Shown one piece after another: positions 4,714 through 64,000 of a stretch of 64,000 bases of DNA (the first letter of the stretch is position 1; each line of letters begins with the position of its first letter). This stretch comes from Brachypterus glaber (taxonomy: Eukaryota > Arthropoda > Insecta > Coleoptera > Kateretidae), in assembly GCA_958510825.1 (NCBI GenBank), contig OY294045.1, positions 9,847,916 to 9,911,915 on the forward strand. Direction: 5' to 3'. A model generated the notes under the pieces. That model was given only the letters and a program-made list of their open reading frames with translations, searched no databases and was not told where the DNA came from. The position numbers and the translations under genes were made by a program.

Positions 4714-5063
4714 ACACAAAAATAAAGGATATCTTGAATCAAAGCAAAACGATCTTGAACCAATGCCGCAATGGGTTTGGATATGTTCAACGCCATGACT
4801 GTCTTGGATCAAGTCCGCCGTTATCTTGGCATTTGAGATCCTAGATTTAAGGACATTTCCTTAAATCAAAGCCACTTAAACCATTTATTTAAGATCATAT
4901 TATCTTAAACCAAGTATGTAATTATCTTGATTTAAGATCATATTATCTTTATCCAAGATCATATTATCTTACACCAAGTATTGGTTTCAGATAATATAAT
5001 CTTAAATGAAGAGAATTATAATCTTGATTTAAGATTATAATTCTCTTGATTCAAAATCATATC
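4714..5063 (+). mobile_element. ATCTTGA-rich repeat, copy 1
   Basis: It is collinear and highly similar to 41515-41872. Both contain GGATATCTTGAATCAA near the start and several quasi-palindromic AAGATCATATTATCTT blocks. The copy at 41515 has perfect 11-bp inverted ends (AGAAAAAAAGG and CCTTTTTTTCT). In this copy the ends are eroded. It is probably a non-autonomous DNA element; the superfamily is not clear. Confidence 0.65.
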
Positions 5064-12088: not shown

Positions 12089-12600
12089 AGAACTATGCAG
12101 TTTCGGGCTGCTGGCCCTCTTTAGAGGGAATAATTAATTGTATAGTTCTAGAGTATTGGCCAAAATGTTGATTTTAATTTCTACCATTTCAGTGATATAT
12201 CGTATCTGTATTTGTTATATTGTTATAATATTAGATATTTTATTACATTGTTAATTAACTTTAAACCTTTATTTTGTAAACTTTAATTTTGTAAATTTTC
12301 AAATAATATTGTCCTGTAATTGGTTTTTCTGTTGGGCAATAAAATAAAAATAAAGATTATTATTATTATTATTATTTAGTACCAAGAGTAAACTCTGCAC
12401 GCTGATTAAGAAAACTTTTTTAGACTTTATTCGCAAAAAAAATATAGTTATTAGATTGATGTAGACTTGTGCGCCATCTATTGCTAGATGTAGACAACTA
12501 CTCATACCTCTTCCAGTCTGGAGACTTTGAATGGTAGCTGTAGGATGATTAGAAAATAGATTGATGGAATAATAAACTATAAGTCTTTTGTTTTTATTTC
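12089..12600 (-). repeat. Rearranged copy of the hammerhead-bearing repeat
   Basis: GCAGTTTCGGGCTGCTGGCCC (12091-12121 region) and 12376-12536 match 63675-63866 closely, including TGATGTAGACTTGTGCGCCA and GGAGACTTTGAATGGTAGC. On the minus strand the ribozyme core reads CUAAAGA instead of CUGAAGA, and the 3' strand of stem I is not conserved. A non-LTR 3' end has inserted inside the core (12122-12375). After 12536 the sequence switches orientation: GATGATTAGAAAATAGATTG (about 12545) is the complement of 63630-63650. This copy is split, inverted at one end and presumably inactive. Confidence 0.7.
12122..12375 (+). mobile_element. Non-LTR retrotransposon 3' end inserted in a ribozyme core
   Basis: The tail CTGTTGGGCAATAAAAT followed by ATT repeats (12356-12376) is the same 3' terminus as that of the copy ending at 62975. 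CTGTAATTGG precedes it, as in the copies at 361-785 and 58822-59821. Comparison with 63690-63705 shows the repeat interrupted exactly here. TTTAG occurs on both sides, a probable 5-bp TSD. Only 3' UTR sequence is present. Confidence 0.7.
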
Positions 12601-29011: not shown

Positions 29012-29722
29012 ACAACATGTACCGCGGGACTCGTATCGGAAAAGCCTTAGAGCCACTCTATCTATCTGCGGGTTCGTCGTAAGTGTGTGGAGCGAAAAAA
29101 CAAGCAGTGAAGATATGTAATGCTACGCATTTCATTATATACTGTTCACAGTAAATGGAAAATTGCAGTTTCCCAAACAATTTTTTAATTTTTTTTTTTT
29201 TTTCGAAAAACGAAATTTTTTTGAAAATTAAAAAAAATCAAAGAAAAAAACCAGTTAACCCTTATTAGTCACAATTTTTTTTCTATGTATGCAAACAAAT
29301 AAACAAATTTAATTCAGTATAATACAGCTCTCCTCAAACTCTAAGGAAACAAAACTCGAGCAAAAACTAAAAAAAAATGCTTTATTTTTATTTTTTTTTT
29401 CTTCTTTTTAGGCATAGCAAATATAAAAAAACACCATTAAAATTATCATTAGTTTAGGCTCGGGAGGGTAAGGGTTAAAAAAATATCTTTTTTGAAAAAC
29501 AAAAAATCTTTGAAAAAATAAAAATAAAAAAAAACTTAAAATTTTTTTATTTAAGTATATTTATTATAAGTAATAAAATAATACCTTCACGGCTCATTAG
29601 TGATAAAATAAATCGAATCTGGGCATATCAGTGATAGCAATGTTGATGCTGGGCAGCCATATTGGATTCGCCCAAGCGGTCTTTCCGCGTCAAATAAATT
29701 CCAAAGCCTGTATTTTTGGTTT
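29012..29722. repeat. 711-bp tandem duplication, unit 1
   Basis: Every line I compared between 29012-29722 and 29733-30443 is identical at a constant offset of 721, including long A/T runs. The units are separated by 10 bp (GGACTTTTGG). The unit contains CGTATCGGAAAAGCC and GTGAAGATATGTAATGC, the latter recurring at about 31630 and inverted near 34890. There is no ORF of interest. It is either a very recent duplication or an assembly artefact. Confidence 0.85.
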
Positions 29723-29732
29723 GGACTTTTGG

Positions 29733-30443
29733 ACAACATGTACCGCGGGACTCGTATCGGAAAAGCCTTAGAGCCACTCTATCTATCTGCGGGTTCGTCG
29801 TAAGTGTGTGGAGCGAAAAAACAAGCAGTGAAGATATGTAATGCTACGCATTTCATTATATACTGTTCACAGTAAATGGAAAATTGCAGTTTCCCAAACA
29901 ATTTTTTAATTTTTTTTTTTTTTTCGAAAAACGAAATTTTTTTGAAAATTAAAAAAAATCAAAGAAAAAAACCAGTTAACCCTTATTAGTCACAATTTTT
30001 TTTCTATGTATGCAAACAAATAAACAAATTTAATTCAGTATAATACAGCTCTCCTCAAACTCTAAGGAAACAAAACTCGAGCAAAAACTAAAAAAAAATG
30101 CTTTATTTTTATTTTTTTTTTCTTCTTTTTAGGCATAGCAAATATAAAAAAACACCATTAAAATTATCATTAGTTTAGGCTCGGGAGGGTAAGGGTTAAA
30201 AAAATATCTTTTTTGAAAAACAAAAAATCTTTGAAAAAATAAAAATAAAAAAAAACTTAAAATTTTTTTATTTAAGTATATTTATTATAAGTAATAAAAT
30301 AATACCTTCACGGCTCATTAGTGATAAAATAAATCGAATCTGGGCATATCAGTGATAGCAATGTTGATGCTGGGCAGCCATATTGGATTCGCCCAAGCGG
30401 TCTTTCCGCGTCAAATAAATTCCAAAGCCTGTATTTTTGGTTT
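29733..30443. repeat. 711-bp tandem duplication, unit 2
   Basis: Second copy of 29012-29722. Downstream, CGTATCGGAAAAGCCTT appears again near 30608. This shows that parts of the unit belong to a more widespread repeat. Confidence 0.85.
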
Positions 30444-41514: not shown

Positions 41515-41872
41515 AGAAAAAAAGGATATCTTGAATCAAACCAAAACGATCTTGAACCAAGGCCGCCATGGCTTTCGATATGCTCAACGCCATGTCTGTT
41601 TTGGATTAAGTCCGCCGTGATCTTGGCATTTGAGGTCCTAGATTTAAGGACATTTCCTTAAATCAAAGCCACTTAAACCATTTAATTAAGATCATATTAT
41701 CTTAAACCAAGTATGTAATTAGCTTGATTCAAGATCATATTATCTTTATCCAAGATCATATTATCTTACATCAAGTCTTGGTTTAAGATAATATAATCTT
41801 GAATGAAGAGAATTATAATCTTGATTTAAGATTAAGATTATCTTGACTTAAAATAGAGCCGCCTTTTTTTCT
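41515..41872 (+). mobile_element. ATCTTGA-rich repeat, copy 2, intact ends
   Basis: Perfect 11-bp inverted ends AGAAAAAAAGG (41515-41525) and CCTTTTTTTCT (41862-41872). Interior is collinear with 4714-5063. AAGATCATATTATCTT recurs at least three times as quasi-palindromes. No clear TSD. Confidence 0.75.
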
Positions 41873-42397
41873 ATACAAAGTTCTTTACAAATGGCCTATT
41901 GGGTCTCCGGGTATTTGGGAATTTTCCATATTATTTTGATAAGGGTACCAGCTTAAATTTTTCTGTACAAAGTTTTTTCTGATTAAGTCAATCACACATT
42001 TCAGAAATCCCACATGTCCAAAAACTTGTGTGGTTTCTGTTGAAAATAAACTACATTAAAGAAGTGGATTTTCGGTAAAAGCCCCACATGCCCAAAAATG
42101 TGGACATGTGGGGTTTCTTATTTTTTACCAAGCTTGCCGGGCCCCCAGATGGCCGGACTTGGCAACTTTGCACCCACTTTGACCCTTTGTGTCCGGGTTT
42201 GATTATAGGAGGGCAGTAAAAATTATTTAAAAAGTAAGTCAGTGTTTAAATCCAGAACATTAACCAATTTAAATTGTTTAAATTAACATTGTGGAAGTTT
42301 TATAGTTTTGGTCGTTAAATTAAGTCCAAATATGAAAATTATTCATGCGTTTAAAAAATTAATCAACAAAAAAAAATACTGCTAAAATAATTATTAT
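41873..42397. other. Unassigned spacer
   Basis: CCCCACATGCCCAAAAATGTG with neighbouring CCACATGTCCAAAAACTTGTG variants (about 42009, 42094 and 42108) forms short hairpins. No gene. Confidence 0.4.
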
Positions 42398-42660
42398 GGA
42401 GGCATAGCGTAGTGGCTGGCGCGTATGCATAGCAAGTCTACTATCGTGAGTTCGATTCTCACTGGCGCCGATTTGCCTTTTTCAGTTAATTAATAATTGA
42501 AATTTGGCGAAGGCGATAAGTGAAACGGACACTCCCTAGAAACTGGTTCGAAAGTCAGTATAAGCCGGTGGTTCCCTCTACTACTAGCCCACACAAGTCC
42601 TGGACTTAGGGGATGCTTAATTAAGTAGAATAGAACGAGGTTAAACAAACAAAACAAATA
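42398..42660 (+). mobile_element. tRNA-derived SINE, copy with head
   Basis: 42398-42472 is tRNA-like. TAGCGTAGTGG (42405-42415) fits an RNA polymerase III A box and GAGTTCGATTC (42448-42458) a B box, 32 bp apart. A clean acceptor stem does not form, so this is not a functional tRNA gene. A body follows (TTTTTCAGTTAATTAATAAT, ACTGGTTCGAAAGTCAG, CCTCTACTACTAGC, GTCCTGGACTTAGGGGATGC) that recurs without the head at 54077-54250. The 3' end is A-rich, with AAACAAACAAAACAAAT. Confidence 0.75.
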
Positions 42661-58140: not shown

Positions 58141-58225
58141 ATAAAAACTCTTAAAGATAGGTGATTGATACGACAGTTTTTTGTATTTTAGCATATGTAT
58201 TAAAGAAAATATAAAATTATCGCCT

Positions 58226-58257
58226 AGCGCTTTCAGTCTATTTCAGACTATCATCAG
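58226..58257 (-). ncRNA. Hammerhead-like core in left pseudo-LTR
   Basis: On the minus strand the order is CTGATGA, a hairpin with stem AGTCT/AGACT, GAAA, then GCGCTAGGCG that could form a short stem III. All core positions of CUGANGA...GAAA are present. I cannot find a local partner for stem I, so it may be active only as a dimer, or not at all. Penelope-like elements are known to carry such ribozymes in their pLTRs. Confidence 0.55.
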
Positions 58258-58277
58258 GGCTGGGCTCTGAAAAGTAA

Positions 58278-58634
58278 GAAGACCCAACCCCAATTTTTAA
58301 AAAATGTGGTATTTACAAATTAACTTGCCAAAATTGCTCAAAATTTTATTTAGGAAAAACCACAAGATCCATTAACATAAGATGTAGCGAACACTTAAAA
58401 AGGCCCAACCATTCTGCTTTTGGCCATCACCTAAAATTCAACAACCACCAATTTAGCCCTGAAAATAACATTGAAATCATTCACCATATATCAACACACA
58501 AACATGACCTAAAATTAAGTCTGTTAGAAGACCTAGAAATTACCCTTAATAAAAAACACAAATCCAATTTCTGCTTAAACAATCAAACTAACCTAAACCA
58601 TAATTTTCAGCCTCTTTTTAAAAACCTAATTTAA
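58278..58634 (+). pseudogene. GIY-YIG endonuclease domain of a Penelope-like ORF
   Basis: This open frame of about 118 codons ends at a TAA (58632-58634). It starts within the truncated element without an ATG. It shows GIYKLTC (Gly-Ile-Tyr from 58308), a second Cys, then FYLGKTTRS (the YIG motif with Leu), and IRCSEHL, where the conserved Arg and downstream acidic/His residues of GIY-YIG nucleases are expected. This Cys-spaced GIY-YIG form is typical of the C-terminal endonuclease of Penelope retroelements, which nicks target DNA for reverse transcription. The N-terminal reverse transcriptase is absent, so the copy is dead. Confidence 0.8.
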
Positions 58635-58821
58635 ATTTTATCTTTTTCAAATTTAGCGCGTTTTTTCTAGTGACTTTCTGTTTTTGTCTCCTCAACGTTT
58701 TTCACAAGTTCTGTTCTGTCAAAGGCCTTATTTGACAATGACCATAAAAATTTTAATTTTAACTTATTTTAAATGTATTGTATAACTTAATGTATGGAAC
58801 CTTGTTCCTCCTTTTTATGTT

Positions 58822-59821
58822 TATTTATTTATTTCGATATACCACCCAACAGCCGAGGCCAATTACAGGGTGGGAATTATACACAATATAATATACACAT
58901 ATATATATATACAAATACAGAAACATTATAATACTTAAAGTTAAGACTTAAACATTAAAATACTGCAAGAAAAAAAATAAAAATGAAAGAAAGAACAGGA
59001 ATAGTACTAACTTAAATTTAACCTTTTAATTGCAGTTAGGCTAGTACTGAATATGTCAAGACTATCTTGCAGGGAATCGCAGGTACTACATATAAAATAA
59101 ATTGGGGAGGATTTCAATACATTTGTCCTAGGAGTTCTTAGATAAAAAGTTAAATTATCACGAGCTCCTACTCTTGGTACATGTATTGGTATTTTATCTA
59201 ATATATCTGGGCAGTTTATACCAAAGTGCAAAATTTTAAATAAAAATGTAAGGCCTAATCTTTTTCTCATGTTTTCAAGTGAGTCGAAGCCAAATCTATT
59301 AAGCAGTTCGGTGTGTGGATACCCAATGGGAGGGTAAACGCCATCTACCTTAAACTTTAAAAACTTTAAGAACCTCCGTTGAATTCCTTCCAAGTGATCG
59401 GCATGTGTCATATAACCTGGGTTCCAAATAATACATGCATACTCCAATTTAGACTGCACAAACGTAGTATAAAGTAATTTTAACAAAGATATGTCTGTGA
59501 ATCCTGTTGAATTGCGTATTACAAAGCCTAAGTTTTTGAAAGCTGCTTGCACAACATTTCCAATATGCTTATTGAAGGAAAGTTTACTATCGAAAGTAAT
59601 CCCTAAGTGATTTGTTACCCAGCGTGTAATTAAAAATTATAGGATTTTTCTTTCTTGTAAAAGTCATTACTTGGCATTTATCAACATTTAAAGGTAGATT
59701 GTTTTTGTCACACCAAGCTTTTACTTTTTCAAGATTATTCTGGAGCCGCAAACAGTCTAAAAGCGATGTAATAGCTAAGAAAAATTTTGCGTCATCGGCA
59801 AAAAGTAAATAGAAAATGTTA
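58822..59821 (-). mobile_element. Jockey-like non-LTR retrotransposon, 5'-truncated
   Basis: Exactly 1000 bp between perfect 7-bp duplications TTATGTT (58815-58821 and 59822-59828). On the minus strand it runs from the RT catalytic FADD through the C-terminal region and a 3' UTR containing CTGTAATTGG and TGTTGGGTGG, to an AAATA tail. It is nested in the Penelope-like element's 3' UTR. Confidence 0.85.
59007..59821 (-). pseudogene. Reverse transcriptase C-terminal half, frameshifted
   Basis: The frame begins, on the minus strand, with NNIFYLLFADDAKFF (FADD encoded at 59791-59802, the catalytic Asp pair of RT). It continues with W..KNNLPLNVDKCQVMTF, a thumb-like segment. Near 59605-59620 one extra base shifts the frame into GITFDSKLSFNKHI, QSKLEYACIIWNPG and GIQRRFLKF, and then HVPRVGARDN, RTPRTN and SPIYFICS, ending at 59007. 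This order is standard for Jockey-like ORF2. The first ATG in the second frame (59552) is not a genuine start. It is inactive through truncation and frameshift. Confidence 0.85.
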
Positions 59822-59984
59822 TTATGTTATCCTGTTGTAGTGGCTCTGACAAGTAAGTAACTTTTCTAATTTTCTTTTTCACGTAAAAAATTTTTCACAT
59901 AACCTCAAAATTTCAACGACCCGCATTTTCACAAAATATTTTATAAACCCCCCCGTCTTCTTACTTTTCAGAGCCCAGCCCTGA

Positions 59985-60017
59985 TGATAGTCTGAAATAG
60001 ACTGAAAGCGCTAGGCG
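59985..60017 (+). ncRNA. Hammerhead-like core in right pseudo-LTR
   Basis: Inverse copy of the left core: CCCTGATGATAGTCTGAAAT, then AGACTGAAAGCGC on the plus strand. Sequence identical in the core positions, so both pLTRs have kept it. The stem I partner is not evident. Confidence 0.55.
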
Positions 60018-60089
60018 ATAATTTTATATTTTCAATAATACATATGCTAAAATACAAAAAACTGTCGTATCAATCACCTATATAAAAAC

Positions 60090-61036
60090 CAGCATACAAG
60101 TCAAAAATCATTCATATTAACTCTTAAAGAATCCGAATGTAGCATTTTTTGTTTTAAATAAATGTAAATTTTTACTTGATACCTTAAGTTACGAAAAATA
60201 GAATTAAAAATCTTTGTCTATTCAGAAGTTCAAAAGCCATACTGTTTGACAAAGCCAAACCAAACAAACGGTTTTCTAAAATATGTTTATTTATTTACCT
60301 CTCGAATGGACTGCCGCCTATTTAGATTAGATAAAGAGAGAAGTTCTACAGAAAGAGATAAAAGTATAATTATTAATGTTTTAAAATAAAATTATGCATA
60401 TTTTAGGAAAAAAATAACATTTTAGATCATATTTTAAATTACATTAAGGTAAGATATTTGTTTTTTTTTATTTTTATAACACAGTTATGTGTACAGTAGG
60501 TCTAAAGTTTCCTAGGGAACTTATGACCTACTCCTTAATTTGAAAGTCATTGATAAAACCCCGTTGTGTGTGCAGATTTTGTACTTGTTTTTGTGTTTAA
60601 TAAACTGTTTTATGTATTCTTTAATAATTTTGCATAAAATGCATATTTTTTGTTGCACTGTGATAAAATCCAAATATAATATTTTAGGGAATTTTCTTTT
60701 TGGGTTGGTATTGAAGACCTAAATTTATGTTGCCTAACGTATTGGACTGCTGTCCATTCGCAAGTAAAAGTAATTTACCGATAAACGAAAATCAAAAAAT
60801 GCGATTTTCTCGAAAAAGGCTTTAACGATTTTGTTTGTAATCCTTGATTCCAAATTACGACATCTTGAAGTTGCACACAAGTGGAGTCATCTACCGGCTA
60901 ACATCAAAGTTTATGCAGAAAACTTACTTTGAAGATGTAAACTAACAGCCGGTGAAAACTATTTTATTAATAACTAAATGGCATTAAAATTTAGAGTAGG
61001 AATTTATTGCAAGTATTTTAAAAGTTACTAAAGTTT
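60090..61036. other. Unassigned AT-rich spacer
   Basis: No recognised feature. The 60-codon frame 60540-60722 has hydrophobic composition but no identifiable identity. Confidence 0.4.
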
Positions 61037-62148: not shown

Positions 62149-62432
62149 GATCCAAACAACGTAAAAACTGACAAAAACGTAGCCAACATATACATTCCTC
62201 TGTCTTACTCGCACAGCTTTGTTCTAACAGAGACAACAATAACAGTTACTGGTTATTGTTATTGTTCAGGCCTGAATATACCTACTATTTGTTTACAAAC
62301 AAACTGAGATGTTGGCAAAACTTTATATTAACGGTATGCGTATTCTAGAGAGAAGAGTTGTTAGTTTGTTGCAACGAACTAATAACTCTCTAGAATACGC
62401 ATACCGTTAATATAAAGTATCGCCAACATCTC

Positions 62433-62941
62433 CTTTTCCTTTTCCTTTGTTCGGTCTAAACTTGAATATGGAGCAATTATCTAGTATCCATATTACAATC
62501 AGCATATAGATAGTATTGAATCTGTTCAGCGTAGATTTTTAAAATATTTTTCGCTTAAGACAAATGGAGTTTATCCTCCCAGAGGAGCTGATTTAACGGG
62601 CTTAATGGCACAATTTGAATTTCAATCACTAAACACGCGTAGAGTTAAAATATCAGTTTCTTTTTTATACAACATTTTGCATAATAATATTGACTGCAAT
62701 ACGCTTTTGTCTCAAATTAACTTTTTAGTGCGACACGACACTCTACTACATTTTTTCTTTCCAGACCAAATACTAATCTAATGCTTAAGTCTCCTATATA
62801 TGTGATGTGCAAGAATTTTAATAATATTTCAGGTCTTTGTGATATATTTTTCTAATTTAAAATGTATTATTAGTTTTATAAGTTAACTTTATTGTATTAT
62901 ATAAATGTCCTGTTTGTATTTACTGTTGGGCAATAAAATTA

Positions 62942-62975
<34 letters not shown>
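62433..62975 (+). mobile_element. 5'-truncated non-LTR retrotransposon nested in the dimer
   Basis: 543 bp between ATCTC duplications (62428-62432 and 62976-62980). It splits the MITE motif CCAACATCTCGGTTTG seen whole near 9812. It ends with CTGTTGGGCAATAAAAT and a run of ATT units (about 62941-62975), the same 3' end as at 12122-12375. Confidence 0.9.
62446..62855 (+). pseudogene. Non-LTR ORF2 C-terminal remnant with stop and frameshift
   Basis: FVRSKLEYGAII is followed by an in-frame TAG (62482-62484) where Trp is expected (cf. IIWNPG in 59007-59821). Then IDSIESVQRRFLKYF, KTNGVYPPRG and SVSFLYNILHNNIDC follow. In the T run at 62751-62756 the frame shifts, and the tail continues as LSRPNTNLMLKSPIYVMC to a stop at 62853-62855. 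It is clearly homologous to 59007-59821 and 361-630. Confidence 0.85.
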
Positions 62976-62977
<2 letters not shown>

Positions 62978-63177
62978 CTCGGTTTGTTTGTAAAAAAAAT
63001 AGTAGGTATATTCAGGCCTGAACAATAACAATAACCAGTATCTATTATTGTTGTCTTTGTTAGAACAAAGCTGTGCGAGTAAGACAGACGAATGTATATT
63101 TTGGCTACGTTTTTGTCAGTTTTTACGAATGAAATGCCTATTCTAGAGAGAAAAGTTATTAGTTCGTTGGTTCGTTG

Positions 63178-63570
63178 GATCCAAACCACCTACCATTCTA
63201 TAAAAAATATTCAGATTCATATTACCATGTTTGACATACCTACTTCCGAACCATACTTTATGCCAGTTAAATAATAAGTAAGAGATAAAAGCACTCACGA
63301 ACACAATAAATGCAACGTTTTCCTAAAAATTTCTTCACTGGTCCCCAGGGCTTTGTAATAAGCTATAACAAAATCTTGTGTATTGCAAATCTAAATCATA
63401 ATGAACCAAGCAATGCAGCCTTATTATGTTCATTGTACCTTTACGGATTCACGTGTTAAAATCATATTATATAACGAGTTGAATGAATCTACATCCATAT
63501 TAATAAGGCACGTAAATTATCCATTCCATACTATAAATAAAGAGTAAAACATTTATAAGGGGTTAAATAT
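63178..63570. other. Unassigned spacer
   Basis: Nothing recognised between the dimer element and the ribozyme-bearing repeat. Confidence 0.45.
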
Positions 63571-64000
63571 TAAGGACAGAAATTTTTAATTTTAAACAAA
63601 ATTATAAAAATATTAATTTATTATTCCATCAATCTATTTTCTAATCATCGTACAGAGTGATATTGGTAGACTGACAGTTTCGGGCTTCTGGCCCTCTTCA
63701 GTACCAAGAGTCAACTCTGCACGCTGATTAAGAAAACGTTTTTAGACTTTACTCGCAAAAGGAATATAGCCATTAGATTGATGTAGACTTGTGCGCCATC
63801 TATTTCTAGATGTAGACAACTACTCATACCTCTCCTAATCTGGAGACTTTGAATGGTAGCAAGTTGAAGACTTGTGTGTCTCAAGCACATAGTACCACTA
63901 ACGGGTGGTTAGACGTAGAATTCGTAAGGACAGAAATTTTTAATTTTAAACAAAATTATAAAAATATTAATTTATTATTCCATCAATCTATTTTCTAATC
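63571..64000 (-). repeat. Hammerhead retrozyme-like tandem repeat, unit about 355 bp
   Basis: AAGGACAGAAATTTTTAATT and the following 75 bp at 63571-63645 are repeated identically from 63926 to the end of the window, a period of about 355 bp. One complete unit is therefore visible and the array may continue beyond the window. The unit carries a complete hammerhead ribozyme motif on the minus strand, so transcripts of that strand would be cut into unit-length RNAs. No ORF is present. The length, the ribozyme and the tandem start match metazoan retrozymes / hammerhead satellites. A rearranged copy lies at 12089-12600. Confidence 0.7.
63656..63714 (-). ncRNA. Hammerhead ribozyme, type I
   Basis: Read on the minus strand: stem I UUGGUA (63707-63702), core CUGAAGA (63701-63695), stem II GGGC-CAGAA-GCCC (63694-63682), GAA plus A15.1 (63681-63678), stem III ACU-GUC-AGU, cleavage-site C (63669), then UACCAA (63668-63663) closing stem I. 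GAGU and ACUC further out add four more pairs across an internal loop, where loop-loop contacts are expected. All invariant positions are present (CUGANGA, GAAA, UH). Predicted cut lies between 63669 and 63668. It is a strong structural match, but activity is not proven. Confidence 0.8.

Follow-up and report, generated by a model that had tools for sequence, protein, structure and literature searches.

The stretch analysed here, referred to as the window, comprises 64,000 nucleotides of the Brachypterus glaber genome (C2:9847916-9911915 of a 648-Mb assembly) and ends within a tandem array of a 354-bp unit (Table 1). The first-pass annotation had placed the repeat copy at 63926 and estimated the unit at ~355 bp; the recurrence of the first 76 bp without a mismatch stands, and position and length are corrected to 63925 and 354 bp. 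The repeat also continues beyond the window: in the assembly, the array occupies C2:9911486-9914813, which is 3,328 bp or 9.4 units, with its left end at unit 1-3, its right end at unit 142 and TAAATAT at both sides. The unit has a GC content of 36%. It holds no stop-to-stop frame of 75 aa or more and is therefore not a Penelope-like element (PLE) itself, and the A-box and B-box patterns of a SINE pol III promoter are both without match on either strand of 63571-64000.

Table 1. Positions of the retrozyme and Penelope features within the window.
Feature	Position	Strand	Remarks
Older second copy, unit 105-131	12098..12124	-	25/27 identical; core mutated to CUAAAGA
Older second copy, unit 127-290	12375..12538	-	152/164 identical
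Older second copy, opposed arm, unit 85-44	12538..12579	+	40/42 identical, inverted; outer end at E2
Inverted pLTR arm of 5'-truncated Penelope copy	58157..58283	-	127 bp, 98% to 59955-60081; base 58157 may be duplication
Penelope GIY-YIG endonuclease fragment	58278..58631	+	PF01541, E 8.8e-05
Direct pLTR arm (to 60081) and 37-nt tail	59955..60118	+	tail on this arm only
Left target-site duplication TAAATAT of window array (L047)	63564..63570	+	right copy past window, directly after array
Retrozyme unit, first full unit of array	63571..63924	-	354 bp; spacing 354; ribozyme RNA is minus strand
Reverse-transcription start E1, as read from inserts	63571..63573	-	unit 1-3; also left end of window array
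Tail between E1 and E2, about 46 nt	63571..63616	-	borne by one arm of two-armed insert
Reverse-transcription start E2, as read from inserts	63606..63620	-	unit 36-50, mostly 44-49; opposed arm at other loci
Type I hammerhead, complete core and stems I, II, III	63650..63722	-	descriptor scan
Predicted self-cleavage site	63668..63669	-	after C17 (complement of G63669); unit 99|98; from motif position
Near-palindrome AGAGTCAACTCT	63707..63718	.	unit 137-148; zone of 19/64 inner ends
Start of second unit, cut by window end	63925..64000	-	76/76 bases identical to unit start

The hammerhead on the minus strand consists of the core CUGAAGA, a stem II of GGGC/GCCC closed by the loop CAGAA, the sequence GAA, and a stem III of ACU/AGU with the loop GUC, which places C17 at 63669. 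The initial reading of a complete motif with its core, 4-bp stem II, 3-bp stem III and cleavage C agrees with a descriptor scan that demanded core, stem II, GAA, stem III, H17 and stem I. The scan returned 63722..63650 as the sole complete motif of the window, and 0 motifs in 600 first-order Markov windows of equal size, searched on both strands. Stem I had been described as 6+4 bp and is instead formed by 9 bp (one G.U), a 6x4 internal loop and 6 bp. The covariance-model check suggested earlier gave no match at the locus: 63400-64000 is without any Rfam match even at E<=5, and none of the Rfam hammerhead models reaches its gathering score anywhere in the window. Among stretches with up to 6 mismatches from the 33-nt catalytic region, collected from the 40 genomic places described below, 106 of 126 have retained an intact core and stems II/III; the fetched copies differ too little from each other to reveal covariation.

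Nearest-neighbour energies offer further detail about the likely active form. For the isolated 73-mer, another fold (-28.3 kcal/mol) is predicted to be more stable than the hammerhead fold (-20.2 kcal/mol). Two copies arranged as a double hammerhead reach -52.9 kcal/mol, compared with -40.4 kcal/mol for two single ones, the best dimer fold being at -59.4 kcal/mol. Since the double form is better in energy than two single forms, these calculations suggest that the hammerhead may act in pairs, in line with reports on type I ribozymes whose helix III is weak (PMC7761336). When treated as circular, the ribozyme strand is predicted to fold better than its shuffles (z -4.8, 60 shuffles), and so is the other strand (z -3.3).

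Against the possibility that the unit is single-copy, raised at the outset, we found at least 149 matches falling in at least 40 places of the host assembly. Both counts are lower bounds, because 40 of 827 first-look candidates were scored and these lean toward the best matches. Exact scans of viral contigs gave 0 matches, and a genome-contig scan gave 8 bacterial matches, none of which contains the ribozyme core. All 40 places were fetched and mapped. Both flanks are readable in 37 of them (L055, L066 and L072 were left out), and in 33 of these a common word of at least 7 bp, with a median of 12, is present at both ends of the insert, which we read as target-site duplications (TSDs). These words may hold up to 3 nt of element per side, and the same applies to the control, in which left and right flanks from different places were paired and only 4% share such a word. 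Duplications of this length are absent from L039, L041, L052 and L060.

Dispersed copies carrying TSDs speak for a retroelement and not for a plain satellite, and they support the earlier proposal of a metazoan retrozyme that is moved in trans. Unequal crossing-over or DNA-level circles might instead have spread a tandem satellite in which the ribozyme is a fossil, an origin that would accommodate arrays of up to 9.4 units, the near identity of their units and the alternating pattern described below. The duplications, the fixed ends and the opposed arms all speak against such an origin, as does the intact state of most ribozyme stretches, though many copies are simply young, and we regard it as very improbable. 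The Dolichopoda pDo500 satellite (PMC2837043) is likewise an insect repeat with a hammerhead that may work in single or double form; it is described as satellite DNA, unlike the dispersed inserts with duplications seen here.

By the pipeline count, 32 of the 40 places display two arms, the left one in unit sense and the right one reversed, with the RNA 3' ends pointing outward. Four places with a duplication are single-armed (the window array, L048, L070 and L071), and all of them start at E1. Another four fall outside these classes: L055 meets an N run, and L052, L060 and L066 are complex or exceed the fetched stretch, L052 having shown an opposed E2 arm in an earlier mapping. Across the 40 places, 36 E1 ends could be called, 35 of them at unit 1-3, the lower limit of the caller being unit 1 and extensions of 1-2 nt being indistinguishable from chance. 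The right arm of L039 passes unit 1 and runs to unit 340. Both ends are resolved in 30 of the two-armed places (all but L041 and L072), and 27 of these pair one E1 end with one E2 end, so that in these inserts exactly one arm bears the tail of ~46 nt. The exceptions are L039, L063 (E2 and E2) and L075 (E2 and unit 10).

Around the near-palindrome AGAGTCAACTCT, at unit 121-150, lie 19 of the 64 inner ends of the arms, and at the ribozyme site (unit 97-100) there are none (0/64). With no insert end at the cleavage site, the inserts give no sign that cleavage occurs. Of the 32 joins between arms, 23 show an overlap of 1-8 bp, although 10 of these overlaps measure only 1-2 bp and could be due to chance; the other 9 joins contain a gap or added bases. 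An arm longer than 354 nt is present in 30 of the 32 (in L065 by just 2 nt), and both arms exceed this length clearly in L073 and L077 and marginally in L074 (358 nt).

The window contains a second, older copy of the unit at 12098-12579, with an opposed arm of its own. Its 6-bp duplication is weak, as 8.6% of random pairs reach this length. We had considered this copy as the insert of a ribozyme-cut linear monomer, a reading that we dropped because the 40 places, with no inner end at unit 97-100, lend it no support. A comparable older two-armed copy (94-96%) lies at L042 563-887, ~2 kb from the young one, and shares the loop II variant 117T>G with the older copy of the window. Within the latter, 12125-12374 is occupied by the 3' end of a LINE, which bears GGGCAATAAA and an (ATT)n tail related to that at 62906-62972. 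This is the sole LINE insert of the window with a readable duplication (5 bp, TTTAG), and it has no second arm. A protein search with the LINE ORF matched 26 proteins, among them one of Tenebrio molitor at 41% identity. A further LINE fragment (62485-62977) is enclosed by 135-bp inverted repeats (62160-62294 and 62993-63127, 96%), and 62160-63127 might be a foldback or MITE-like element into which a LINE has inserted. Judged by eye, sequence like these inverted repeats also flanks the retrozyme locus L071.

Elsewhere in the window, a 300-bp direct repeat (29012-29311 and 29733-30032) is 100% identical at a spacing of 721 bp. A tRNA-Ala (agc)-like sequence at 42397-42471 (Rfam 37 bits, cut-off 29) could be a gene or a SINE head. 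At 4891-5034 and 41688-41855 lie two arrays that resemble each other, both built of partly palindromic 21-22-bp units (AAGATCATATTATCTTAATCC).

Twin priming, known for human L1, gives 5' inversions, and in its classical form the two arms should hardly overlap. The unit might thus be moved by a LINE (Jockey/CR1-like) enzyme, with the opposed arm as a product of ordinary twin priming, and the LINE fragments with (ATT)n tails in the window, one of them inside the older copy, are in keeping with such a partner. However, a second arm is present in 32 of the 40 places and has a fixed start in 27 of the 30 resolved inserts, which is more than occasional inversion would leave. The two arms longer than a full unit in L073 and L077, and marginally in L074, are at odds with the small overlap expected, and the one LINE insert of the window with a readable duplication displays neither a second arm nor more than 5 bp of duplication. 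Moreover, extension of both strands by a PLE has been contrasted with R2 and L1 (PMC11167929). Taken with these features, a LINE as the mobilising enzyme appears improbable.

Arms that run through more than one unit allow for a comparison of successive laps, which bears on the form of the template. At positions covered by at least two laps (leaving aside unit 30-50 and the outermost bases of the arms), we found 105 variants, of which 91 are limited to a single lap, 6 occur in every lap and 8 in a subset of the laps. L061 harbors a variant that is absent from all other fetched places and present in 3/3 laps across both arms, indicating a common template or a common source for the two arms. In L059, a variant likewise absent from all other fetched places is present in 2/2 laps. 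Two of the 8 partly shared variants alternate over 9 units of the window array, as from a two-unit template; partial lap sharing is also seen in L057, L066, L072 and L075. These patterns fit an origin of some inserts from circles of one or two units, with linear multimers or, in single arrays, later unequal exchange as the alternative.

The template could accordingly be an uncut linear multimer transcribed from tandem loci and mobilised by a PLE, the hammerhead taking no part in insertion. The arms cross the cleavage site without any inner end at unit 97-100, 8 of the 14 multi-lap variants (including the alternating pair) are confined to some laps, and a PLE whose ribozyme has been mutated remains able to insert in vitro (PMC11167929), all of which speaks for such a template. 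On the other side, private variants in every lap (L059 and L061) are expected of a one-unit circle, and equally of a uniform parent array, and most of the fetched ribozymes (106/126) are intact. We consider the uncut multimer unlikely, if a serious contender, and a circular rather than linear template somewhat the more probable form.

Penelope copies of this genome display similar insert structures. The window holds a 5'-truncated Penelope copy at 58146-60130, flanked by the 12-bp duplication AACTCTTAAAGA at 58146-58157 and 60119-60130. An alternative duplication, TATAAAAAC, was dropped for the better pair AACTCTTAAAGA with the 37-nt tail. The insert is interrupted by a minus-strand Jockey/CR1-like fragment (frames 59010-59636 and 59590-59826). 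CTGATGA motifs at 58201-58257 and 59981-60037 were rejected as canonical hammerheads, as they sit in the arms of this PLE and are of PLE type with an extra U. In L095, another copy, one arm carries a tail of 34 nt and the duplication measures 11 bp, so that one tail (34-37 nt) and a duplication of 11-12 bp are found in two of the three PLE copies examined; the third, L094, has a shorter left arm. A GIY-YIG search of the genome, in which 150 of 3126 candidates were scored, gave 12 opposed PLE neighbours within 6 kb among these 150, and in 12/12 the 3' ends point outward. The retrozyme and PLE footprints of this genome match in their geometry, in having a single tail and in the length of the duplication.

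At the level of sequence, compared with stretches from 7 PLE loci (open frames of 787-827 aa) and the window copy, the unit displays no similarity beyond AT-rich pieces (best E 0.018). The link to Penelope thus rests on insert structure rather than on sequence. The unit has no RT or GIY-YIG ORF, and in the two PLE copies with a resolved tail this measures 34-37 nt, compared with about 46 nt in the unit. A PLE-type ribozyme is visible in 5 of the 7 PLE loci, the window copy, L094 and L095, and none was seen in the stretches from C1:92475959 and C1:22893657. By eye, these ribozymes (L082, L084, L086, L087, L088, L092, L094, L095 and window 59981) have an extra U after a CUGANGA core and a palindromic stem III of AGCGCU type (AGGCCU in L084), as expected for dimeric action; the canonical ribozyme of the unit has neither.

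These comparisons also bear on whether the unit is a solo pLTR or an internal piece of a PLE instead of a separate element. Both the unit and PLEs have their ribozyme a short way upstream of two closely spaced starts, which would speak for such a relationship. The non-coding spacing of 354 bp contrasts with the 2797 and 2898 bp of tandem PLE arrays, the unit ribozyme has neither the extra U nor the PLE stem III, and no sequence similarity connects the two in the 7 loci and the window copy, which makes a derivation of this kind most improbable. The tandem Penelope arrays themselves lie at C1:101631582-101643539 (period 2898 bp) and C1:22893657-22896792 (period 2797 bp) and have open frames of ~800 aa.

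Known PLEs offer a mechanistic parallel to the two-armed inserts. A PLE protein, once purified, cuts both strands and extends them, starting internally, and its tail of 30-40 bp is located between two start sites (PMC11167929). In Adineta vaga, an inverted pLTR completes the typical PLE insert, with a 31-bp tail on one inverted pLTR and a 9-bp duplication; Adineta Pen1 has mostly direct pLTRs only, so that inverted arms are not universal in PLEs (PMC3846280). The unit shares with PLEs of the Penelope/Poseidon clade (PMC11167929, PMC3846280) opposed outward arms, a tail on one arm, duplications of 9-12 bp, AT-rich targets and a ribozyme just upstream of the starts. Against a Penelope origin of the inserts, each arm of the unit has its own start, in AU-rich sequence, whereas the starts of the Anolis PLE are alike on both strands and lie in an AC-rich stem loop (PMC11167929). 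On balance, the two-armed, one-tailed structure favours Penelope over LINE machinery. Of the partners named in the first-pass annotation, the Penelope-like one gains support from this structure, and the Jockey-like one is disfavoured.

We propose that the unit belongs to the metazoan retrozymes, is non-autonomous and owes its mobility to Penelope-like machinery, a combination that we hold to be likely. The minus strand would be transcribed, and hammerheads, probably paired, would cut the transcript to 354-nt units that could be ligated into circles. As read from the inserts, both 3' ends of the cut target then prime reverse transcription at fixed internal RNA sites, one start lying at unit 1 (E1) and the other about 46 nt upstream (E2). 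Each cDNA is able to cross the ribozyme cleavage site and often becomes longer than one unit. Joining of the two cDNAs, mostly with a short overlap, leaves two arms with their 3' ends outward, a single tail and a TSD of ~12 bp. The inserts themselves show the dispersal, the duplications, the arms and their multi-unit length, the starts and the joins, from which self-cleavage, circular RNA and a PLE as the enzyme are inferred steps. That the mobilising machinery is Penelope is quite probable in our judgement.

The identity of the element as a metazoan retrozyme is very probable. It shares with the non-LTR retrozymes of coral, mussel and axolotl (PMC7229834) a type I hammerhead in tandem repeats of 150-450 bp, a GC content below 50%, the lack of coding capacity, TSDs longer than 4 bp and the co-existence of PLEs. 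Duplications of metazoan retrozymes, when present, are reported there to be longer than the 4 bp of plant retrozymes. Plant LTR retrozymes are likewise non-autonomous and ribozyme-bearing, and their spread is thought to proceed via circular RNA; they differ in their type III ribozymes within LTRs, their 4-bp duplications and their Gypsy-type partner (PMC4918200, PMC7229834). Metazoan retrozymes are described as tandem repeats in PMC7229834, unlike the mostly two-armed inserts with two fixed starts and one tail found here. The available text of that paper describes no two-armed retrozyme inserts, from which we claim no absence from print.

For the enzyme that moves metazoan retrozymes, LINEs or PLEs have been considered, with PLEs as a strong candidate because of shared ribozymes, tandem copies and co-existence (PMC7229834). 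The element of B. glaber joins the metazoan retrozymes, and its insert architecture points to Penelope machinery. The insert footprints are physical evidence on the question of which enzyme moves these elements, and they offer a mechanism by which short arrays could arise in one step. By extension, metazoan retrozymes may be parasites of Penelope, a small ribozyme-made RNA circle being copied by a Penelope enzyme from two fixed starts, one per target strand, with each cDNA travelling around the circle, and the arrays being rolling-circle products; we see the chances of this broader proposal as evenly balanced. If it holds, retrozyme arrays would carry the Penelope footprint wherever they are found, and the combination of two opposed arms, one tail and two fixed starts provides a test usable on any genome with retrozymes.
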